This document shows, piece after piece, positions 14,253 through 25,835 of a stretch of DNA of 35,958 bases (the first letter of the stretch is position 1; every line of letters starts with the position of its first letter). Under the pieces are notes generated by a model. The model was not told where the DNA came from. It did not search any database and saw only the letters and a program-made list of their open reading frames with translations. This stretch comes from an uncultured Bacilli bacterium (GTDB lineage: Bacteria; Bacillota_I; Bacilli_A; RF39; UBA660): assembly GCA_944359065.1 (NCBI GenBank), contig CALVSP010000007.1, positions 1 through 35,958 on the forward strand, read 5' to 3'. The position numbers were made by a program, and so were the translations under genes.

Positions 14253-14954
14253 ATGGCATATATTGAAGTAAAAAAAATTAGTAAAACATATAAAATGGGG
14301 GAAGTATTAATTAAAGCAATCGAAGATATATCATTTGAAATAGAAAAGGGGGAATTAGTTGTTATATTAGGCCCTTCTGGTGCTGGAAAAACAACTGTTT
14401 TAAATATTTTAGGTGGTATGGATACAACTGATAGTGGAAGTATTATAATTGATGGTAAGGATATATCAAAATACAATAAAAAACAATTAACTAACTATCG
14501 AAGATATGATATTGGCTTTGTTTTTCAATTTTATAATTTAGTTGGTAATTTAACAGCTTTAGAAAATGTTTCTCTAGCTAGTCAAATTTGTAAAAAGCCT
14601 AAAGATAGTGAAGAAACTTTAAAAAGTGTTGGTTTAGAAGATCGAATTAATCATTTTCCTGCTCAATTATCAGGTGGCGAACAACAAAGAGTAAGTATTG
14701 CTAGAGCTTTAGCTAAAAATCCTAAATTATTATTGTGTGATGAGCCAACAGGCGCTTTAGATTCAAAAACTGGTAAATTAATATTAGAACTATTACAAAA
14801 AACTTGTCATAAATCTAAAATGACTACAATAATAATCACTCATAATGCGATTATATCTGATATTGCCGATAAAGTAATTAAAATTAAAAATGGTACTGTT
14901 AAAGATATTATTATTAATGAACATCCTAAATTAGTTGAGGAGATCGATTGGTAA
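14253..14954 (+). CDS. ABC transporter ATP-binding protein (MacB/LolD type)
   Basis: A 233-residue ATPase. It has Walker A GPSGAGKT (40-47), the Q loop at Gln92 in GFVFQFYNL, signature [15 protein letters not shown] (139-153), Walker B plus D loop [12 protein letters not shown] (159-170) and switch His197 in IIITHN. The sequence belongs to the MacB/LolD/FtsE group, whose members power mechanotransmission permeases rather than channels. It pairs with the FtsX-like permease that starts at its stop codon. Its likely job is to drive export, lipoprotein or peptide handling, or antimicrobial-peptide resistance; the cargo is unknown. Confidence 0.94.
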
Positions 14955-17900
14955 TGATATTTAAAAATAGTTTAAGAAAAATAAAAAAATCATTAGGTCG
15001 ATTTTTATCTTTAATTTTTATTGTAATGTTGGGAAGTGCTTTTTTTTCTGGTATTAGAGAAGCTGCTACCGATATGATAAAAACGATGGACGAATACTAT
15101 GATGAAACGTCTTTAATGGATTATAAAATAATAAGTACAATGGGGTTAACTGCTGGTGATGTTGAATCGATTAAAGAAATATCATCAGATTTAATAGTTG
15201 TGCCATCTTATTCGTTTGATATATTATTGGATGGGGATGTAACGAGAATTCACGCTATTACAGAAATTAATAAAGTCAATTTAGTAAGTGGTAGTATGCC
15301 GAATGATAATGAATGTTTAGTTGAAGATGGTACTTATAATATTGGCGATAAAATAGTAATTGATAGTGATAATTTAAAGGTTAAAGAATATACAGTATCT
15401 GGTACAGTTACGAGTTCATTATATACTTACAAATCAAAAGGAATATCTAGTATTGGCGATGGTAAATTAGATACATTTATTTATATTCCAATCGATAATT
15501 TTGATATCGAATATTATACAGAAATTTATATAATCGATAAAAATAGTGTCGATAAAACTTCTTATTTAGATGATTATAAAGTAGTAATTAATACATTAGA
15601 AAATAAACTAAAAGAATTAAAGCCAATTAGAGAGACAATTCGTTATGAAGAAATTTTAAAAGAGGCTATGGATATTATTAATGAAGCCGAAGAAAAATTA
15701 TTAAATGAAAAAGAAACGAATGGTAAAAAATTAGAAGATGCTTTAAAAGAACTAGATGAAAATAAACAAAAAATTGAAGATGGTTATGATGAATTAGATA
15801 ATGGTAAAAAAGAATTAGATAAAACTAATAAAGAGATGGAAAGGACCTTTAATGATGCTAATAGTAAATTAGAAAGCGCTAAAAAAGAATATAATAATGC
15901 TTTAAAAAAATATAATTTAAAAGAAAGTGAATTAGAATCTAATTTAAATTTATTAAATGAACAAATTACTAATTTAAATAATTTATTAAATACATTAGAT
16001 CCAAGTAGTGAAGAATATCTAACTTATAGTACGCAATTAAAAATATTAGAAGAAAATAAAACTAATTTAGAATTATTAATAAATACCAAAGAAGAATTAA
16101 TAAAACAAGAAGAAGAATTAAATAAGAATATCGATTTATGGAATACTGAATTTGCTAAACAAGCAAGTATTATCAATGAAAAATATGATGAATTAGATGA
16201 AGCTTCAAAAGAATTAGAAGATGGTTATAAAGAATATGAAGAAAATTACAACAAATATATTGAAGAAATAACTAAAGCAGAAAATGAAATAAACGATGCT
16301 AAAGAAGAATTAAACAATATTGAAAAACCAAAATGGTATTTGTTATCAAGAGAAGATAATAGTGGTTATACTAATTTTTATGAAAGTGCAGTTAAAATAG
16401 ATGCCATTGCTGCAGTATTTCCAATATTTTTTATGTTAGTTGTATTTTTAATGAGTTTAAATACGATGACGAGAATGATCGAAGAAGAACGCGGTGAAAT
16501 TGGAACTTATGTATCTTTAGGAATCAATAAATTTAAAATTGTTTTGAGTTATTTATTTTATGTTTTAATTGCTACATCAATAGGTTTATCTATTGGATTA
16601 TCAATTGGTTATGCTTATGTACCACATATATTATATAGTGTTTATAAAGCTAACTTTGTCATACCTGAATTAAAAACATATGCCGAAGTTATACCTTGTG
16701 TTTCAATTATTTTAGTAACTATTTCATTAATGGTTGTTGTAACATTGTTAACTGTTTTAAAAGATTTTAAATATGTTCCGGCCGCTTTACTAAGACCAGA
16801 AGCTCCAAAAAAAGGTAAAAAAGTATTGTTAGAAAAAATTAAATTTATTTGGAAAAGATTATCGTTTACTTGGAAAGTTACGATTAGAAATTTGTTTAGA
16901 TATAAAAAAAGAATTATTATGACTTTATTAGGAATATCAGGTTGTACCGCTTTATTGTTGACTGGTTTTGGAATAAGAGATAGCGTTAGTTCACTAGTTA
17001 GTTTACAATATGATAAAATTCATTTATATGATACAATGCTTATTTTAAATGATGAACAAACTACTATTAATGAAGATATAAATAAAGTATTAAATGATAA
17101 TAATATAAATAATTTATTATATACCCATATGGAAACATTTACTTTTAATGCTGATAATAAAAATATTGATACTTATTTATTAGCTTTTGAAGATTTATCT
17201 TTAGTAGATAATTATATCAAAATAAATGATTTAAATGGTAACAAATTAGAATTATCTGATAATGGTATTATTATAACTTCTAAGATGGCTGAATTATTAG
17301 ATGCTTCCGTAGGTAAGTCAATTAGTATTCGAAATAGTGAAAATGAATTATTTATTTTAAAAGTTGAAGGTATATGTGAAAATTATGTCAATAGTTATAT
17401 TTATATGAGTAGTAATTACTATAATAAAATATTTAATGAAATAACTTATAATACAATTATTACTAATGTTTCAGAATCTTTAGCTACTACTTTAATGGAC
17501 ACAGAATATTTTAGTAATATTCAATTTACAACTGATAGTTTAGATGTGTTTAATGATATTATAAGTGGTATGAATAACATAGTTTATTTAATTATTATTT
17601 CTTCTAGTTTACTAACGGTTATTGTTCTATACAATTTAACAACAATCAATATAAATGAAAGAAAAAGAGAAATTGCGACTTTAAAAGTATTAGGTTTTAA
17701 AGATAGAGAAGTATCAACTTATGTTTATCGGGAAACATTAATACTAACTTCACTTGGCATAATAATTGGTTTAGTTTTGGGAGTCATTTTAAATAGTTTT
17801 GTATTGACGATTGCTGAAACTGATGAAATATTATTTGTTAAAAATATTAATAAATTAAGTTTTGTTTATACATTCTTAATTATGATATTCTTTACGGTTT

Positions 17901-17971
17901 TAGTTCAAGTAGTAACGCATTTTTCGCTTAAAAAAATAGATATGATTGAATCATTGAAATCAGTTGAATAG
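14954..17971 (+). CDS. FtsX/MacB-type ABC permease with a long extracytoplasmic coiled coil
   Basis: A 1005-residue permease. After an N-terminal membrane helix (about 13-33) comes a large extracytoplasmic region. Residues about 215-455 are almost entirely charged heptad-like helix rich in Glu, Lys, Asn and Leu, a long coiled coil. The transition KPKWYLLSREDNSGY and then MTRMIEEERGEIGTYVSLGI mark the first FtsX domain with three helices. A second MacB-like periplasmic domain and a C-terminal FtsX domain (NERKREIATLKVLGF, then three helices) follow. This matches the large Gram-positive permeases linked to cell-wall hydrolase control or peptide efflux. I start it at the ATG overlapping the ATPase stop by one base (TAATG) behind GAGGAGAT; a TTG two codons earlier is too close. 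Confidence 0.9.
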   Translation: MIFKNSLRKIKKSLGRFLSLIFIVMLGSAFFSGIREAATDMIKTMDEYYDETSLMDYKIISTMGLTAGDVESIKEISSDLIVVPSYSFDILLDGDVTRIHAITEINKVNLVSGSMPNDNECLVEDGTYNIGDKIVIDSDNLKVKEYTVSGTVTSSLYTYKSKGISSIGDGKLDTFIYIPIDNFDIEYYTEIYIIDKNSVDKTSYLDDYKVVINTLENKLKELKPIRETIRYEEILKEAMDIINEAEEKLLNEKETNGKKLEDALKELDENKQKIEDGYDELDNGKKELDKTNKEMERTFNDANSKLESAKKEYNNALKKYNLKESELESNLNLLNEQITNLNNLLNTLDPSSEEYLTYSTQLKILEENKTNLELLINTKEELIKQEEELNKNIDLWNTEFAKQASIINEKYDELDEASKELEDGYKEYEENYNKYIEEITKAENEINDAKEELNNIEKPKWYLLSREDNSGYTNFYESAVKIDAIAAVFPIFFMLVVFLMSLNTMTRMIEEERGEIGTYVSLGINKFKIVLSYLFYVLIATSIGLSIGLSIGYAYVPHILYSVYKANFVIPELKTYAEVIPCVSIILVTISLMVVVTLLTVLKDFKYVPAALLRPEAPKKGKKVLLEKIKFIWKRLSFTWKVTIRNLFRYKKRIIMTLLGISGCTALLLTGFGIRDSVSSLVSLQYDKIHLYDTMLILNDEQTTINEDINKVLNDNNINNLLYTHMETFTFNADNKNIDTYLLAFEDLSLVDNYIKINDLNGNKLELSDNGIIITSKMAELLDASVGKSISIRNSENELFILKVEGICENYVNSYIYMSSNYYNKIFNEITYNTIITNVSESLATTLMDTEYFSNIQFTTDSLDVFNDIISGMNNIVYLIIISSSLLTVIVLYNLTTININERKREIATLKVLGFKDREVSTYVYRETLILTSLGIIIGLVLGVILNSFVLTIAETDEILFVKNINKLSFVYTFLIMIFFTVLVQVVTHFSLKKIDMIESLKSVE

Positions 17972-18020: not shown

Positions 18021-18416
18021 TTGAAAGTATTAACGATTAAAGAGCCTTTTGCAACACTTATTATGAATGGGGTAAAACATATTGAAACGCGAAGTTGGAA
18101 AACAAACTATCGTGGCGAAATATATATTCAAGCGTCGATATCTAAAATAAAAAAAGATATCTTTGAAAGAAAAGAATTGGTTAAATTATTTGAAAATTTA
18201 GATATGCATTGTGGTTATGTAATTTGTAAAGCTTGTTTAAAAGATTGTATTTATATGGACGATGAATTTATTAAAAATGTTAGTTATCAAGAACTTATTT
18301 GTGGCAGATATGAAATTGGTAGATATGCTTGGATATTAGATGATATAAAGATAATTAATCCGATTAAAGTAAAAGGTAAATTAGGAATATGGAATTATGA
18401 AGGAGATATAAAATGA
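18021..18416 (+). CDS. ASCH-domain protein
   Basis: A 131-residue single-domain protein. It opens with LTIKEPFATLIMNGVKHIETRSW, the conserved first strand-helix of the ASCH fold (beta-barrel related to PUA, an RNA- or modified-nucleotide-binding fold). It continues with YRGEIYIQAS and a closing GRYAWIL strand. Known ASCH members include YqfB (an amidohydrolase acting on N4-acetylcytidine) and RNA-binding coactivator domains; which activity applies here cannot be told. TTG is the only start compatible with the ribosome site and the conserved N terminus. The stop overlaps the next gene by 4 bases (ATGA), so it is coupled to the deoxyribosyltransferase-like protein. Confidence 0.85.
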   Translation: MKVLTIKEPFATLIMNGVKHIETRSWKTNYRGEIYIQASISKIKKDIFERKELVKLFENLDMHCGYVICKACLKDCIYMDDEFIKNVSYQELICGRYEIGRYAWILDDIKIINPIKVKGKLGIWNYEGDIK

Positions 18417-18868
18417 TAGTAAATTATTCAGATGAAAAAATTATAACTAGTGAGAAATCAATATTTTTAGCTGGTCCCACTCCTAGAGATAAAAATGCAA
18501 CATCTTGGCGAAATGAAGCAATTAAAATATTAGAAAGATTAGGATTTGATGGAGTTGTTTATGTTCCAGAATATTCAACTTGGAAACCAAAAACTGATTA
18601 TGTTGATCAAGCGATGTGGGAAAGAATTGGTCTAACTAATGCTACTATAATTGCTTTTTGGATACCTAGACATTTACCTGATATGCCGGCATTTACAACA
18701 AATGTCGAATTTGGTTATTGGTTACATAGTGGTAAAGTAGTCTATGGTAGACCAAATGATGCTGAAAAAATAAAATATTTAGATTGGTTATATAAATTAG
18801 ATTATAATGAAGAACCAGTTGCTTCGTTAGAAGAATTATTAAAAATATGTGTAAATAATATAAAATAA
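18413..18868 (+). CDS. nucleoside 2-deoxyribosyltransferase-like protein
   Basis: A 151-residue cytoplasmic protein of the Nuc_deoxyrib_tr_2 type (PF15891). It shows FLAGPTPR (18-25), SWRNEA, GFDGVVYVPE, MWERIGLTNATIIAFWIPR and TTNVEFGYWLHSGKVVYG. The last includes Glu99, a candidate for the family's catalytic glutamate. Classical relatives exchange bases between 2'-deoxyribonucleosides or hydrolyse the N-glycosidic bond. This subgroup is mostly uncharacterised, so salvage, nucleotide-pool cleaning or breakdown of a modified nucleotide are all possible. It is translationally coupled to the ASCH protein, which suggests both act on one nucleotide substrate (inference). Confidence 0.85.
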   Translation: MIVNYSDEKIITSEKSIFLAGPTPRDKNATSWRNEAIKILERLGFDGVVYVPEYSTWKPKTDYVDQAMWERIGLTNATIIAFWIPRHLPDMPAFTTNVEFGYWLHSGKVVYGRPNDAEKIKYLDWLYKLDYNEEPVASLEELLKICVNNIK

Positions 18869-18903: not shown

Positions 18904-19659
18904 ATGAAAGATGTTAATATTTTAAAAAATAATGGTGTTAATGTTGAAAAAAGTTTAGAGTTATTTGGTGATATGGATACATATAATGAAACATTAGAAA
19001 CATTTTTAGGTGAAATAGATGAAAAAATAAGTAATATTAAAAAATATAAAGAAATTGCTGATATGGCTAATTATGCTATACTAGTCCATTCTTTAAAAAG
19101 TGATGCTAAATACTTTGGCTTTGATAAATTAGCTGAATTATCTTATAACCACGAATTAGAAAGTAAAGCTAATCATATTTACTATGTTTATGATCATTTT
19201 GACGAGTTGATGAATGAAACAGATAGAATACTAAATATAGTAAGAGAATATTTTGGTAAGGAAACAGTTAAAAAAGAAGAAGTTAATGTTGTTAAAGATA
19301 AAACAATATTAGTAGTAGATGATTCAGAAGTAATCAGTAGTTTTATAAAAAAAATATTTAATAATGAATTTAATGTTGTTGTTGCTAAAGACGGTATGGA
19401 AGCTGTTAAACAATTAAACAACGATAAATTAATTGGTATGTTATTAGATTTAAATATGCCAAACGTTAATGGTTTTGTTGTATTAGAATATATGAAAAGA
19501 AATAATTTATTAGAAAAAATACCAGTTGCTATAATAACAGGTGTTGGTAACGATGATATTGTTAAAAAGTCATTTGATTATAAAATAGTTGATGTTTTAA
19601 GAAAACCATTTAATGAACGGGATATTAGAAAAGTAGTTGAAAAGATAATAAATAGATAA
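18904..19659 (+). CDS. Hpt-REC two-domain phosphorelay protein without an output domain
   Basis: A 251-residue soluble protein. Residues about 1-115 form a histidine phosphotransfer domain with His62 in LVHSLKSDAKYFG, the canonical acceptor context. After a Lys/Glu linker, residues about 133-251 are a receiver with Asp139/Asp140, acceptor Asp182 in LLDLNMPN, Thr212 in AIITGV and Lys234 in RKPF. There is no DNA-binding, cyclase or methylesterase domain, so it acts either as a phosphorelay intermediate or through protein contacts. No hybrid kinase that would feed an Hpt domain lies in this window; the classical kinase at 8202 pairs with its own regulator. It may take part in chemotaxis-like or c-di-GMP-type control elsewhere in the genome (inference). 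Confidence 0.87.
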   Translation: MKDVNILKNNGVNVEKSLELFGDMDTYNETLETFLGEIDEKISNIKKYKEIADMANYAILVHSLKSDAKYFGFDKLAELSYNHELESKANHIYYVYDHFDELMNETDRILNIVREYFGKETVKKEEVNVVKDKTILVVDDSEVISSFIKKIFNNEFNVVVAKDGMEAVKQLNNDKLIGMLLDLNMPNVNGFVVLEYMKRNNLLEKIPVAIITGVGNDDIVKKSFDYKIVDVLRKPFNERDIRKVVEKIINR

Positions 19660-20491: not shown

Positions 20492-20977
20492 ATGGTTTAT
20501 GTTGGTGAAATAGTAAATACACATGGTATTAAAGGTGAATTAAGAATTGTATCTGATTTTAAATATAAAGATAAGGTTTTTTATAAAGGAAATAAACTTT
20601 ATTTAGGCAAAAGAAAACAAAAAGTTTTAATTGATAGTTATCGCAAACATAAAAATTATGATATGGTTAAATTTACTGATATAAATGATATAAATGATGC
20701 AATTATATTTAAGGGTGATGAAGTATTCGTCAAAAGAGAAGAGTTGGATATTGATGGTTATGTCGATGAAGATATAATTGGATTAAAAGTTTATGATAAT
20801 GATAAATTAATTGGTAAAGTTAGTAGTATAATTAAAAATAAACAAGAAATTTTAGTTGTTAAAAATAGAAATAAAAATTATTTAATACCATTTGTTGATG
20901 AATTTATTGAAAAAATTGATTTAGATAAAAAAATATTATACATCAATGTAATTGAAGGTTTATTAGATGAAAATTGA
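20492..20977 (+). CDS. rimM: ribosome maturation factor RimM
   Basis: The 161-residue length is normal for RimM, which assists assembly of the 30S head by binding S19. The N-terminal RimM barrel opens with [16 protein letters not shown], the family signature, followed by the [23 protein letters not shown] linker. The C-terminal PRC-barrel ends with [22 protein letters not shown]. Its last 11 bases overlap trmD, the conserved partner order in Bacteria. A weak GGGAT site precedes the ATG, so translation may partly depend on the upstream gene. Confidence 0.96.
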
Positions 20978-21635
20978 TATTTTGACTTTATTTCCAAATA
21001 TGTTTGATAATTTTTTAACTGAATCAATTATTAAAAGAGCTATTAATGATAAAAAAGTAATTATCAATATTCACAATATTAGAGATTATTCTAAAGATCC
21101 ACATAAAAAAGTCGACGATTATCCTTTTGGCGGCGGTGAAGGTATGGTTTTAATGCCACAACCGATATTTGATGCTGTTGAACATTTGAAAACACCAGAT
21201 TCATATATCATTCTAATGACACCGCAAGGAATAAAATATAATCAAAAAAAAGCCTATGAATTGAAAGATAAAAAACATTTAATTATTATTTGTGGTCATT
21301 ATGAAGGTTTTGATGAACGAATAAGAACATTAGCAGATACTGAAATATCTATAGGTGATTATGTTTTAACAGGCGGAGAATTAGCTAGCATGGTGGTTAC
21401 TGATAGTGTAGTAAGATTAATTGATGGAGTAATTGAAACGAATTCGCATTTAAAAGATTCATTTAATAATAATTTGTTGGATTATCCAACTTATACTAGA
21501 CCAGCTGATTACAAAGGATTAAAAGTTCCAGAAATTTTATTATCTGGCCATCATGAAAATATTAATATGTGGCGTCATGAACAACAATTAAAAAGAACTA
21601 AAGAACGCCGACCAGATTTGTTGGAGGAAGATTAA
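20967..21635 (+). CDS. trmD: tRNA (guanine-N1)-methyltransferase TrmD
   Basis: A 222-residue SPOUT methyltransferase that makes m1G37 in tRNAs and prevents +1 frameshifting. [17 protein letters not shown] and [16 protein letters not shown] near the N terminus, [12 protein letters not shown], and the trefoil-knot core [12 protein letters not shown] are diagnostic. The C-terminal domain ends with [21 protein letters not shown], as in true TrmD. It lies in an 11-base overlap with rimM and is followed one base after its stop by an unknown gene. Confidence 0.97.
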
Positions 21636-21636
21636 T

Positions 21637-22059
21637 ATGAAGCAATATTTTATTTCAAAAAAAAATTACGATGGTGAAGTTGTTTTTGTTAATTATGACA
21701 AACAAAATGGATATAAATTTAGTCCAAAAAATAACTATCAATATGATGGTATAAAAGTAAATGAGATGATAATAGTTAAGCCATCTTTAATAGAAAAAAT
21801 AATTAAAAGAAAAATAAAAAATAAACTAGATTTTTATTTAAAAATTATAATAGAAAACTTAGATAGCGAAGATGATGATGATACAAGAATTGCTTTAGAT
21901 GACTTGGAAAGATATAAAAAAATTATAAAAGAAAAATATTCAATTTATTTAGATGAAAAATATATGTCTTTATTAAGTAAAAAGATAGGCATTATTGAAA
22001 AAGAATTAAAAAATAGTTTAAATTATGTCAAAGAAGAAGAAATTTCAAGAAGAAGATAA
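21637..22059 (+). CDS. unknown 140-residue charged protein downstream of trmD
   Basis: I do not recognise this protein. It starts one base after the trmD stop behind GGAGGAAG, so it belongs to the rimM-trmD operon. The N-terminal third (YFISKKNYDGEVVFVNYD...YDGIKVNEMIIV) reads as a small beta-rich module. The rest is helical and very rich in Lys and Glu, with an acidic patch SEDDDD near residue 79 and an Arg tail. No membrane segment or signal peptide is present. Its position suggests an RNA- or ribosome-related role, but that is inference from context only. Confidence 0.8.
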   Translation: MKQYFISKKNYDGEVVFVNYDKQNGYKFSPKNNYQYDGIKVNEMIIVKPSLIEKIIKRKIKNKLDFYLKIIIENLDSEDDDDTRIALDDLERYKKIIKEKYSIYLDEKYMSLLSKKIGIIEKELKNSLNYVKEEEISRRR

Positions 22060-22067
22060 AAAAACAA

Positions 22068-22117
22068 TTTACTAATTTTTATTTATTTGATATAATGTTG
22101 CTTAGATGATAGGTGAT
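22068..22117 (+). promoter_or_regulatory. promoter and ribosome site of the cysteine-rich secreted protein
   Basis: TTTACT (22068-22073), a 17-base spacer and extended -10 TGATATAAT (22088-22096). AGGTGAT (22111-22117) precedes the ATG at 22121. The 15-base gap between -10 and ribosome site is longer than in most neighbours. Confidence 0.7.
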
Positions 22118-22120
22118 GTT

Positions 22121-25100
22121 ATGAAAAATAGTAAATTGTTTTTTATTTTTGTAATGATAGTTTTTACAATTTTTAGTCCTACAATAAAAGCAGTAACTGA
22201 TATTGAAAGTTTACCATCTAACGTTTCAAATGTTTGTACTGCTCATAGTTGTTGGCCACAATATAATTCTAAAGTTGGAAAATCAGTTCGTGGAATGAGA
22301 GTTTCTTTAATAAAGACTGATGGAACTGCAGTTGGCGAAACATATAATATTGTTGCGGATGATTCTCACTATCAATTACTAACTAATTATGGTAATTTTA
22401 TTGTTTTAGGGTCTAATTGTAATAAAGTTCAATACGAAATGGGAAAATGTAATGCAACAGTTCAAACTCAAAAAAATTGGTCAGGAAGTCCTTGGTCTGG
22501 TGGAAGATTGGGAGCTGCATCAGCAGTGGCAAGTTATTTTTCTCATTTAAATGTTCCACTTCAAAGTTATTTATCTAATTGGAATATTGAAGATGTGTGG
22601 AATTGGGCTGATACTGAAAAATTACCAATTTCTGATGATCGAACTATTAAATTATTAAATTTATTATTTGGCTTATCTAAAGAAGAAATTTTGGAAATTG
22701 CAGGTAATCCAGATTTGTTAAATGATTTATGGATAGTAGTAGAACCATTTACAATGTTAAGATATAATTATAAAACTTATTTAGGTACTAATTATGAATT
22801 AGCTAAACTTGATTATGCGGGTATGTTAAAATCTAATATTACTTCTGTAGTTGGCCGTATGATGCCATGTGCTGCAATGACTACTGGTGATATAGCAAAA
22901 AAATATCCTAACGCACCAGGCATTTCTACAGGAAGCTATTTTAATGGTAAATTAGTTTACGTTAATCCTTCGACAGAAGTTGCTTCTTCTTCAGGTAGTT
23001 CAACAATTACCCAAATTTGTTCTTCAAGTAAAAAATTTAAAAATGGCTATCCTAATTCAAATAAGGGGGTAGGGGTTGGATTAATTTATTTTAGAGATCT
23101 TTTTAAGAATGATTTAAGTTGTGAAGAAGTTAATAGTGGAATGTCTGATTATAATGGCTTTATGAACAAGTTGGATAATGCTTATAAATCTGGAGGTATT
23201 TCTAGCGTTTTTCAGTTACCAGAAGTTTCTAATGGTATAAAATATACATATAATGGTGAACAAAAAGTTGCCGATCAAAATTGGTATATTAATGAATGTA
23301 CTTGTTATGGTTTATATGATACTTACAAAAGCTCAACAGGTCAAGAAATTTTTAAATTACCATTGGCTAATATAAAAACAATTTTTACAGAAAAAGTAAC
23401 ATTATTTACAACATTTGTTGATAGTATAAAAGAATATGTTAAGACAGTTTCGGAAACAAAACCAGATACTGTTGGGTCAGTTACAACTTGGGATTTTGAT
23501 AAATACGAAAGGTTAAAATGTGAATATACTTCTTCAACATGTGAAGATGTCGATTTTGGAGAATTATCTTCTACTAGTGTTAAAAATCCGTCTCAATGTT
23601 ATACTAGTTGTATATCTTCGGGTAATTTTTCTAGGTGTTACAATGATTGTTTATCGGCATATTATAGTTATCAAAATCAAAGTAGTACAATAAGAAAATG
23701 CCAAAGTTTACCTCTTTTTCCAGATAAAAATTTTACAAATAGTTATGTTAATGCTAATGCTTCTTTGTATAATCAATGTTTTAGTCTTTATAATCAACAA
23801 TTTGGTACTTCTTGGACACTTAGTAGTTATAAAGCTGCAGGATGTTCTCCAGAAGATAATAATGGTAAAAAGAAATATGACTGTACTCCTCGTTATAACG
23901 TTGGAACTTGTATAAATCAAGAAAATGTTTTTTATAATGATTCTTCAAGTGAACTAAATGGTGATGATTATTGGAAGTATTGTGTTTTTAGCGATGATCA
24001 AGCAAGTTATGACATAGATCCACATAAATGGTCAGATAAAACTAAGGATCCCACTTATTTTGATAGTAACATCACATCTGATTATTGTGAAGTTTATTGT
24101 ATTGAAAATTTAACAGGAGCTTTTAATTCTGAAACAATCAAAGTAAAAGCTGGTCAACATTTTATATGGAACGATCATAGTGTAAGTGGTAGTAGAACGT
24201 GTAAAACTAAATCGATTGAATGGGATAAATTTACAAGCGCTTTGGAGAAAAAAAATGATGAAATAGAAAAAGCATTTAATACATATTTAGTTGCTAGAGA
24301 TCAGCAAGCTAGTGTGAAACAATATACTGTAAAGAATGGTTGCAGCGAATGTATATCTTGGTATCCAACACGTCCATGTTCTAATGGTAAGGGTACTTGT
24401 GGTGGAGGATGTCGTAGGTATAGATACTGGGATGAAACATGTATTAAATGGGATTCAGCTACTTATGGAAGTGGAGCGACATATGCACATGGTTCTGCAG
24501 GTAGTGCTTGTTCTTGTAGTGGTTATCCTAGTGATGACAGGTTTGGTAGAGATTCAAAGTATCAAACTTGGGATAATATGAAAGACGATGCAAAATATAT
24601 ATATGATCAAATGCGTAAATGCTATAATGAAGATAAAGGCTCAAGCTGGGTTAGTACAATGAGTGCTGCATCAGGAGAGGGAGCTTCTTGGGATCAGTGG
24701 TTATATATAGTTGATCCAACTGCAGTAGTTAAATATTATTATACAATTAATGGTTCAACAGGATTATACACTGTTGATGAAGATATGGATAGAACGATAT
24801 CTTATACTGGTAAAACAAATGTTAATGATTGTGTAAATTATAATGGTGGTGTTGAAGTTCTTATTTCTTGCTCAGGTAAAACATGTACTCGTCGATATTT
24901 AAGTATAAAAAAATGTACTGAAGTTGAAATGAGTAAAGGTGCTAATATAGAATTTAGTATTCCAGAAGGAATATATGAATATGTCAATAAAGATAATCAT
25001 ATATCATTTAATGCAGATCAATTTGAAACAATTAAATCCGAATATGTTTCTCAAGGTAAGTCTTTTAATTATATTTACTTAGGATATAGTAATTTTCCAG

Positions 25101-25804
25101 TTGAATATAGAACACCAGATGGTATTTATGGTAAGGACTATGGTAATGGTGAATTATCAATTACATACAAAGATTTGGGATATAAATTACCTAATAAGAC
25201 AACTGCAGTAGATACTATTTTATCTGGCGTTGATTCATCAAAATATGGTCAATGGCAATGTCAATTTGAGGTTGTTTCTAAATTAATTCCTGACGATAAT
25301 AATCCTTATGATCCTGATATCCCAGGGAGTCCTAAAGAGGGAGATATAAAGTTAATATATCGTCCAATAGACTTACATAATCCATTTCCAGATATCACTG
25401 CTGATGGTAGAAATACTGGTAGCAATTGGTGTGTAGGTGGAGAAGATAGAGCTGATTGTTCTAATACAAATGCAAATGTTCAAGATTATATATTGAATAA
25501 TCGAAATGTAGAAGGACATGATTTATATTATGAAGAACCGATGTATACTTTTATTTTAACTCCTGCTATTATAAAAGAAATAAGAAGGTATAATGATAAT
25601 AATTCGTATGCTGAATATTATGGAAGTTATAATGGCAAAGTTTATGATTTTAAATGTGAAGAAGGAACTGGAAGGACTTGTATAAGTGAATATTTGTCTT
25701 ATTTAATAGATATAACAGACGCAAAAAATCAACCTGGTGTTTGTGTTGATGATAAGTATAGAAGTTATAATGATCCAAATAACTTCGATGCTTGTAGATA
25801 TTGA
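22121..25804 (+). CDS. large secreted cysteine-rich protein of unknown function
   Basis: A 1227-residue protein that I cannot assign to a family. A classic signal peptide (Lys4, hydrophobic core about 6-18, likely cleavage after IKA near residue 24) sends it out of the cell. I count 44 cysteines spread over the whole mature chain, with dense clusters. One is a twin C-x3-C unit at Cys493/497/506/510. Another is Cys741/744/753/760/764/774. Trp and Tyr are also frequent. There is no LPXTG sorting signal or C-terminal membrane helix, so it is probably released or held by other contacts. I start it at 22121 behind AGGTGAT; an ATG five codons earlier overlaps no ribosome site. It is monocistronic. 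Disulfide bonding is likely but inferred. Confidence 0.85.
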   Translation: MKNSKLFFIFVMIVFTIFSPTIKAVTDIESLPSNVSNVCTAHSCWPQYNSKVGKSVRGMRVSLIKTDGTAVGETYNIVADDSHYQLLTNYGNFIVLGSNCNKVQYEMGKCNATVQTQKNWSGSPWSGGRLGAASAVASYFSHLNVPLQSYLSNWNIEDVWNWADTEKLPISDDRTIKLLNLLFGLSKEEILEIAGNPDLLNDLWIVVEPFTMLRYNYKTYLGTNYELAKLDYAGMLKSNITSVVGRMMPCAAMTTGDIAKKYPNAPGISTGSYFNGKLVYVNPSTEVASSSGSSTITQICSSSKKFKNGYPNSNKGVGVGLIYFRDLFKNDLSCEEVNSGMSDYNGFMNKLDNAYKSGGISSVFQLPEVSNGIKYTYNGEQKVADQNWYINECTCYGLYDTYKSSTGQEIFKLPLANIKTIFTEKVTLFTTFVDSIKEYVKTVSETKPDTVGSVTTWDFDKYERLKCEYTSSTCEDVDFGELSSTSVKNPSQCYTSCISSGNFSRCYNDCLSAYYSYQNQSSTIRKCQSLPLFPDKNFTNSYVNANASLYNQCFSLYNQQFGTSWTLSSYKAAGCSPEDNNGKKKYDCTPRYNVGTCINQENVFYNDSSSELNGDDYWKYCVFSDDQASYDIDPHKWSDKTKDPTYFDSNITSDYCEVYCIENLTGAFNSETIKVKAGQHFIWNDHSVSGSRTCKTKSIEWDKFTSALEKKNDEIEKAFNTYLVARDQQASVKQYTVKNGCSECISWYPTRPCSNGKGTCGGGCRRYRYWDETCIKWDSATYGSGATYAHGSAGSACSCSGYPSDDRFGRDSKYQTWDNMKDDAKYIYDQMRKCYNEDKGSSWVSTMSAASGEGASWDQWLYIVDPTAVVKYYYTINGSTGLYTVDEDMDRTISYTGKTNVNDCVNYNGGVEVLISCSGKTCTRRYLSIKKCTEVEMSKGANIEFSIPEGIYEYVNKDNHISFNADQFETIKSEYVSQGKSFNYIYLGYSNFPVEYRTPDGIYGKDYGNGELSITYKDLGYKLPNKTTAVDTILSGVDSSKYGQWQCQFEVVSKLIPDDNNPYDPDIPGSPKEGDIKLIYRPIDLHNPFPDITADGRNTGSNWCVGGEDRADCSNTNANVQDYILNNRNVEGHDLYYEEPMYTFILTPAIIKEIRRYNDNNSYAEYYGSYNGKVYDFKCEEGTGRTCISEYLSYLIDITDAKNQPGVCVDDKYRSYNDPNNFDACRY

Positions 25805-25835
25805 AAGAATTGATAAAATTAATCAATTCTTTTTT
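25804..25835 (+). terminator. terminator of the cysteine-rich gene
   Basis: AGAATTGAT (25806-25814) pairs with ATCAATTCT (25822-25830) around a seven-base loop, and six T follow (25830-25835). It is back-to-back with the rpmB terminator on the other strand. Confidence 0.85.

Follow-up and report, generated by a model that had tools for sequence, protein, structure and literature searches.

The tips of Tad/Kil pili are variable large minor pilins, among them KilN4, in which two long helices accompany a beta scaffold, with no match in the PDB (PMC12075869). PilY1 is a non-pilin tip adhesin of type IVa pili in which a conserved part is combined with a variable one (PMC13190605). A gene-context language model has also predicted a ‘secretion-related’ operon in gut Firmicutes that includes CpaF, GspF and DUF5411, and that encodes one large protein with remote and partial homology to internalin B (PMC9523054). 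Here we describe a gene located at positions 22121-25804 (+ strand) of a 35,958-nucleotide stretch of DNA from an uncultured Bacilli bacterium (contig CALVSP010000007.1; hereafter ‘the window’). Its translation is a cysteine-rich protein, which we call the giant, of exactly 1227 amino acids with 44 Cys residues, as had been noted when the window was read by eye from its letters and open reading frames (ORFs) (the sequence-only reading). By analogy, the giant is best read as a counterpart of PilY1 or KilN/TadG that belongs to neither family.

The giant resembles KilN/TadG in being large, encoded with tad genes and endowed with an exchangeable variable domain. However, KilN and TadG, being pilins, have an alpha1 helix and a prepilin peptidase site. 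The giant lacks a pilin N-terminus of this sort, and its residues 1-24 look like a Sec signal peptide instead. The variation also differs in kind, as it is carried by an exchanged cassette within one protein rather than by separate paralogous tips. With PilY1/PilC the giant shares the character of a large exported non-pilin with functional cysteines, a variable ligand part and a conserved C-terminal part, and it likewise is encoded with minor pilins, as evident from the pseudopilin and DUF5411 neighbors in other genera. PilY1, however, is defined by a C-terminal beta-propeller, often preceded by an N-terminal vWA domain. Pfam searches find neither in the giant, and no propeller emerged from a PDB fold search in which the C-terminal module is poorly modeled. 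The variable part of the giant is internal, unlike that of PilY1. Finally, the language-model operon is probably the same kind of locus as the one described below, although that work describes neither the Cys-rich giant family nor its relocation or exchanged cassette, and the taxonomic labels (Roseburia, Ruminococcus, Eubacterium) differ. As a component of a pilus locus the giant is ordinary; the protein family, the rule that places it in one operon slot, its relocation and the exchange of its cassette are new insofar as they appear undescribed in the literature searched.

A Tad-type operon with a slot for the giant

Our comparison spans more than 100 related genera. All genomes compared are metagenome-assembled genomes (MAGs), and statements that a gene is absent from genomes rest on profile searches. 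The source is a low-GC MAG of 1.43 Mb in 104 contigs that is 85% complete, and the window has a GC content of ~25%. Within the window, the giant gene is surrounded by housekeeping genes, namely trmD and a 140-amino-acid ORF upstream (20967-22059, + strand; the usual upstream neighbors in this genus according to the neighbor comparison), an L28-like ribosomal gene on the opposite strand, and dnaE. The neighborhood on the trmD side is common to 12 genomes of the genus.

In approximately 20 genera the gene lies within an operon with the order fam8-fam2-giant-DUF5411-RcpC-TadA-TadB-TadC-Flp-like-pseudopilins-TadZ-like, followed by fam17. The product of fam8 (~530 amino acids) is a membrane protein, and that of fam2 (~217 amino acids) carries a signal peptide, four conserved Cys residues and a C-terminal transmembrane segment. 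An Flp-like ORF of 60-90 amino acids stands beside the TadC-like gene, and the two pseudopilin-like ORFs have two conserved Cys residues. Fam17 (for example L042:14-367, with copies in most operons) is a small Cys-containing membrane protein that is often duplicated at the operon end; it has a TrbC/VirB2-type look by eye, with no significant family match. DUF5411 was identified at 3.5e-50 and is found in 119 of the 145 genomes of the family. The giant ends 0-1500 nucleotides upstream of DUF5411 on the same strand in 65 of the 78 family genomes that carry a giant (median distance 102 nucleotides, counted from the matched stretch), and most of the remainder lie on other contigs or in a genome that lacks DUF5411.

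The Tad/Flp character of the operon is evident from its TadA/CpaF-family ATPase (T2SSE, 1.2e-27; TadA-family ATPase, 1.5e-25 for the source-genome copy; CpaF structures, 2e-18) and its RcpC/CpaB-like protein (RcpC, 8.4e-6, just under the curated cut-off; CpaB, 5.4e-11, below the equivalog cut-off). An A24 prepilin peptidase is encoded in 18 of 18 species of the genus. Pseudopilins are shared with Tad/Flp systems too, and two colinear membrane proteins at the TadB and TadC positions and the small Flp-like genes are candidate counterparts. In contrast, DUF5411, fam2, fam8, fam17 and the Cys-rich giant stand outside the textbook Tad set, and the equivalents of TadB, TadC and TadZ are too divergent for Pfam or NCBIfam. 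The TadB- and TadC-like proteins (300 and 260 amino acids) occur in the expected order without a T2SSF match, whereas the same profiles do match the Tad locus of an outside family.

In the genus of the window, a colinear operon is present elsewhere in the genome (contig C69, locus L114 in the source genome). In all 17 species of the genus with a DUF5411 match the slot for the giant is empty, such that fam2 is followed directly by DUF5411. Therefore, the gene of this genus no longer resides in the operon, a relocation that gene-order comparison shows and that leaves the link to the pilus invisible from the window. In species G001 and G002, the displaced gene is found one 142-amino-acid gene downstream of the prepilin peptidase. 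The source genome carries a single copy of the giant gene. Species G011 has two (L032:5211-8900 and L033:4589-8155), of which only one lies at the trmD site, and their cassettes differ.

We also read the slot in 20 operons, almost all of them in genera that yield few or no matches to the giant profile. Nineteen of these hold an ORF of 619-1566 amino acids with 12-56 Cys residues and one is empty; among the 19 is a split ORF whose Cys-rich part is fused to DUF5411. A profile built from 16 slot proteins aligns with the giant profile over 526 columns (hhalign 99.8%, E = 9.6e-30), from a YC-x-x-YC-x-E motif to the C-terminal module. Given the linkage in 65 of 78 genomes, the 19 occupied slots and this profile match, stable membership of the giant in the Tad pilus locus is well supported at the level of sequence and gene order.

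Several related arrangements were observed at this end of the operon. DUF5411 is fused to large Cys-rich ectodomains at L133:4295-7816 (1173 amino acids, 44 Cys) and at L171:5640-7991 (783 amino acids, 49 Cys, with a Big_2 domain). Such fusions were not used as proof of a pilin-borne giant, because the ectodomains are peptidases, Big_2 domains and unrelated Cys-rich stretches. In four genera DUF5411 is joined to Peptidase_M15 (L131:7946-9649, L166:6829-8448, L169:7051-8577 and L103:4942-6285), with a bacterial SH3 domain added in two, and these proteins apparently represent peptidoglycan hydrolases borne by a pilus subunit. A sortase-like gene occurs just upstream of the slot giant, at the fam2 position, in some genera (L130:10748-11551, L172:4798-5640). 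In a Tad locus from another family of the class, an exported protein of 1173 amino acids (L190:1133-4654) is encoded downstream of TadC-like and pseudopilin genes and may be a distant functional counterpart of the giant. Because it has only 11 Cys residues, the Cys-rich form appears to be family-specific.

Conserved cysteines and an exchanged cassette

Homologs of the giant were found in 18 of 18 sampled species of the genus (tblastn and hidden Markov model searches), which also includes Candidatus Faecisoma merdavium. The 17 that were aligned are 25-71% identical over their alignable length. Profile searches recovered the giant in 78 of the 145 genomes of the family and nowhere outside it, as evident by the fact that all 15 matches in a class sample of 296 genomes belong to that same family. 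The restriction to this lineage proposed by the sequence-only reading therefore holds. A viral origin was rejected, since no relatives were found among 2.9 million viral contigs.

That reading had also recognized no domain or family, and in agreement with this the protein gave no match at E<=10 to Pfam or NCBIfam and none of significance to the PDB, while a profile of the giant matched nothing significantly in the three collections; a weak sequence match to PcsB was dismissed as chance. Among 36 family members, Pfam detected one dockerin and one weak DUF and nothing else, and none of the 36 carries an enzymatic or toxin domain. We define the Cys-rich giant family by a C-terminal module (YRPI..PFP..GxNW / LTP..I.xIRxYN) and conserved Cys residues, all of which are present in the giant. 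The alignments place this most conserved module, I-YRPIDL-x-x-PFP ... R-x-x-G-x-NW ... LTP-x-I-IK-x-IR-x-YN ... C ... C-x-S, at 25331-25690, and it is still recognizable in the slot giants of distant genera. It is embedded in a conserved C-terminal region (residues 586-1227; 23876-25801) common to most other genera. The N-terminal region (residues 26-585; 22196-23875) is less uniform: residues ~325 to 575 are missing in some homologs of the genus, and a poorly conserved stretch (residues ~476-550; 23546-23770) contains species-specific cysteines at residues 493-527.

The conservation of the cysteines is shown by the same alignments. Among genus homologs, Cys is the most conserved residue type (82%), followed by Tyr (57%), and 33 of the 44 cysteines are retained in at least 80% of the homologs that cover them. 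Thus neither of the two findings that the sequence-only reading had named as refuting it, a characterized family or unconserved cysteines, was encountered. We infer that these residues pair as disulfides. The sequence-only reading had suggested a search for exported thiol-disulfide oxidoreductases, and its outcome was mixed: profile searches found no VKOR or Thioredoxin_4 protein in the genus, and both were rejected as disulfide makers, but the source genome encodes three exported thioredoxin-like CxxC proteins, of which two are lipoprotein-like and one is anchored by a transmembrane segment.

Prediction and fold search by segments, likewise suggested earlier, led to no known family. AlphaFold2 models the N-terminal half of the giant as mostly helical (mean predicted local distance difference test score, pLDDT, 78) and the C-terminal half as beta strands plus two long helices (pLDDT 72.5, predicted template modeling score 0.62). 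These helices comprise residues 701-730 (24221-24310) and 810-832 (24548-24616). Foldseek comparisons of both halves with the PDB and with viral models gave no meaningful match (best E = 0.03), and weak matches to perforin-2 and the F17 lectin were discarded as being at chance level.

Within the conserved half, length varies most in the stretch between the two helices, which contains a hypervariable Cys-rich cassette whose exchange is shown by nucleotide comparison. This exchange, too, lay beyond what the sequence-only reading could see. Between the window and species G002, a 356-nucleotide tract (24258-24613; residues 713-831) is 98.0% identical, whereas the remainder of the gene is 67.6% identical. 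Only seven differences separate the two cassettes, five nonsynonymous and two synonymous. The tract is located mid-gene and mid-contig in both genomes and is in frame. Conversely, the C-terminal cores of G002 and G001 are 91% identical, but identity drops to 33% between their cassettes, and similar cores with unrelated cassettes are also seen in the pairs G012-G014 and G009-G004. Four homologs of the genus carry only a short loop instead of a cassette; in one of these (G016, L035:7324-11052), a type I dockerin (6.8e-14) follows immediately after the second helix. A cassette search returned one copy per genome, always within the giant gene. A silent cassette store or shufflon was rejected, as this search of incomplete genomes found no local reservoir. 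As judged from the sequences, the mosaic records recombination in an element of a surface-exposed type, and it does not indicate the bound target.

A putative pilus tip and its alternatives

The giant is probably a Sec-exported accessory protein, with the tip as its probable location, of a monoderm Tad/Flp-type pilus in gut Bacilli. Its gene lies within the pilus operon in most genera, between those for fam2 and the pseudopilin-like DUF5411 protein, and outside it in the genus of the window. The protein would leave the cell by Sec and fold outside the membrane with disulfides, and its conserved C-terminal module may then attach it to minor pilins or fam2, such that it would travel outward as a distal, non-pilin part of the pilus. 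The predicted hairpin of two long helices would present the Cys-rich cassette, which is swapped between species by recombination, and the cassette may touch a target such as host mucus or another cell. Because the cassette is swapped among species, the giant is probably the grip of the pilus on a host surface or on neighboring cells. The disulfides, the tip position, binding to minor pilins and adhesion are all inferred. The sequence-only reading had proposed a host- or community-facing surface factor; the surface-facing part of that proposal is supported, and the protein can be placed more specifically in a Tad-type pilus locus.

Some points weigh against a tip role. A Sec signal in place of a prepilin leader means that the giant cannot itself be a pilin. 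The tip position is argued by analogy: the giant shares the logic of Tad/Kil tips and of PilY1 but fails a defining feature of each. The C-terminal module is poorly modeled (pLDDT 30-50 over residues ~1055-1140), although a poor model of the most conserved module would fit a segment that folds with a partner. TadB, TadC and TadZ, whose counterparts here gave no matches to Pfam, NCBIfam or PDB profiles, and Flp, which lacks a Pfam match, are assigned by position, size and look. Moreover, the picture is built from genes in MAGs and from single-protein models.

Other roles for a protein encoded at this position can be considered. The giant could be a Tad-locus protein away from the tip, a wall-spanning conduit or assembly platform that leads the pilus across the thick peptidoglycan of a monoderm and so replaces the outer-membrane secretin. 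Its gene stands beside membrane and assembly genes and always near DUF5411 and RcpC, the conserved core and missing anchor would fit a scaffold too, and the DUF5411-Peptidase_M15 fusions of four genera, two with SH3, suggest that the wall may be the concern of this part of the operon. However, exchange and extreme divergence between the helices are expected of a ligand-facing part, and the cassette is dispensable, since some homologs have only a short loop; we therefore consider a conduit unlikely. A matrix or adhesion protein that is freely secreted or loosely held by the wall, and that is merely co-regulated with the pilus, would explain the exit from the operon. The lack of an anchor, the terminator of the relocated gene and the sortase-like gene that adjoins the slot giant in some genera are all compatible with this possibility, but we judge it quite improbable given the near-universal and position-specific linkage to the pilus operon in more than 60 genera, and given that the displaced gene again lies near the prepilin peptidase in two species.

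Alternatively, the operon could be a secretion system of the Tad or type II kind that exports the giant as an effector or toxin. Monoderm pili and pseudopili are hard to tell apart from genes, and the language-model operon, with its protein remotely like internalin B, was termed ‘secretion-related’ (PMC9523054). With a Sec signal peptide, though, the giant needs no exporter of its own, genes for pseudopilins and for small Flp-like pilins stand alongside, and the scan of 36 members found no enzymatic or toxin domain, which leaves little probability for an effector. Only slightly more credence attaches to the idea that the mosaic of the cassette arose during assembly, as a chimera of different species from a single sample, with the variation due simply to fast loop drift. 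The two genomes are indeed MAGs (85% and 71% complete), but the tract is 98% rather than 100% identical, lies in frame within the gene and away from contig ends on both sides, and has parallels in the three other pairs with similar cores and unrelated cassettes.

A more far-reaching proposal can tentatively be made, which we regard as plausible but short of probable. Sec-exported, disulfide-rich giants of this undescribed type may serve as exchangeable Tad pilus tips across a family of uncultivated monoderm gut Bacilli. Their cassette, placed where the helical hairpin turns, would pass between species by recombination and decide which target is recognized. One gene would then do what separate Kil tips or PilV shufflons do elsewhere. 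In Tad pili that operate without an outer membrane, a Cys-rich giant exported by Sec may take the place that large minor pilins have in other bacteria. Swapping of the cassette between species suggests that selection acts on a recognition interface, whether through a binding partner, immune pressure or a pilus-targeting phage, and the cassette offers a marker for strain-level ecology. With this assignment a hypothetical protein becomes a testable pilus component and DUF5411 gains meaning. Gut and other metagenomes supplied most of the genomes, which have no cultured model, and the findings bear on how small-genome bacteria hold on to hosts or neighbors.

Gene signals and other genes in the window

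By inspection, a ribosome-binding site (AGGTGAT, 22111-22117, + strand) precedes the ATG at 22121, which for this reason is favored as the start codon over the mechanical start at 22106. The signal peptide (22121-22192), read by eye, ends with a predicted cleavage after TIKA. No segment beyond residues 1-24 exceeds the hydrophobicity threshold, and the giant therefore lacks an anchor, just as the sequence-only reading had it. The clean terminator noted there is also borne out: an A+T-rich 12-bp stem followed by a T-run is present at 25803-25835 (+ strand; z = -3.3). Its claim that the gene has its own promoter fares less well. An extended -10-like site (TTTACT-17-TATAAT with a TG extension) is present at 22068-22096 (+ strand), but such consensus matches are no more frequent in this region than in shuffled sequences, so that the promoter is plausible rather than demonstrated.

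Some other genes in the window have unusual features. A protein of 251 amino acids (18904-19659) joins an N-terminal Hpt domain to a C-terminal response-regulator receiver, an unusual order that is conserved beside trmD in the genus. A 1007-amino-acid FtsX/MacB-like permease (14948-17971) has a long coiled-coil-like insertion, and adjoining small genes (18021-18868) encode an ASCH-domain protein and a nucleoside 2-deoxyribosyltransferase-like protein.

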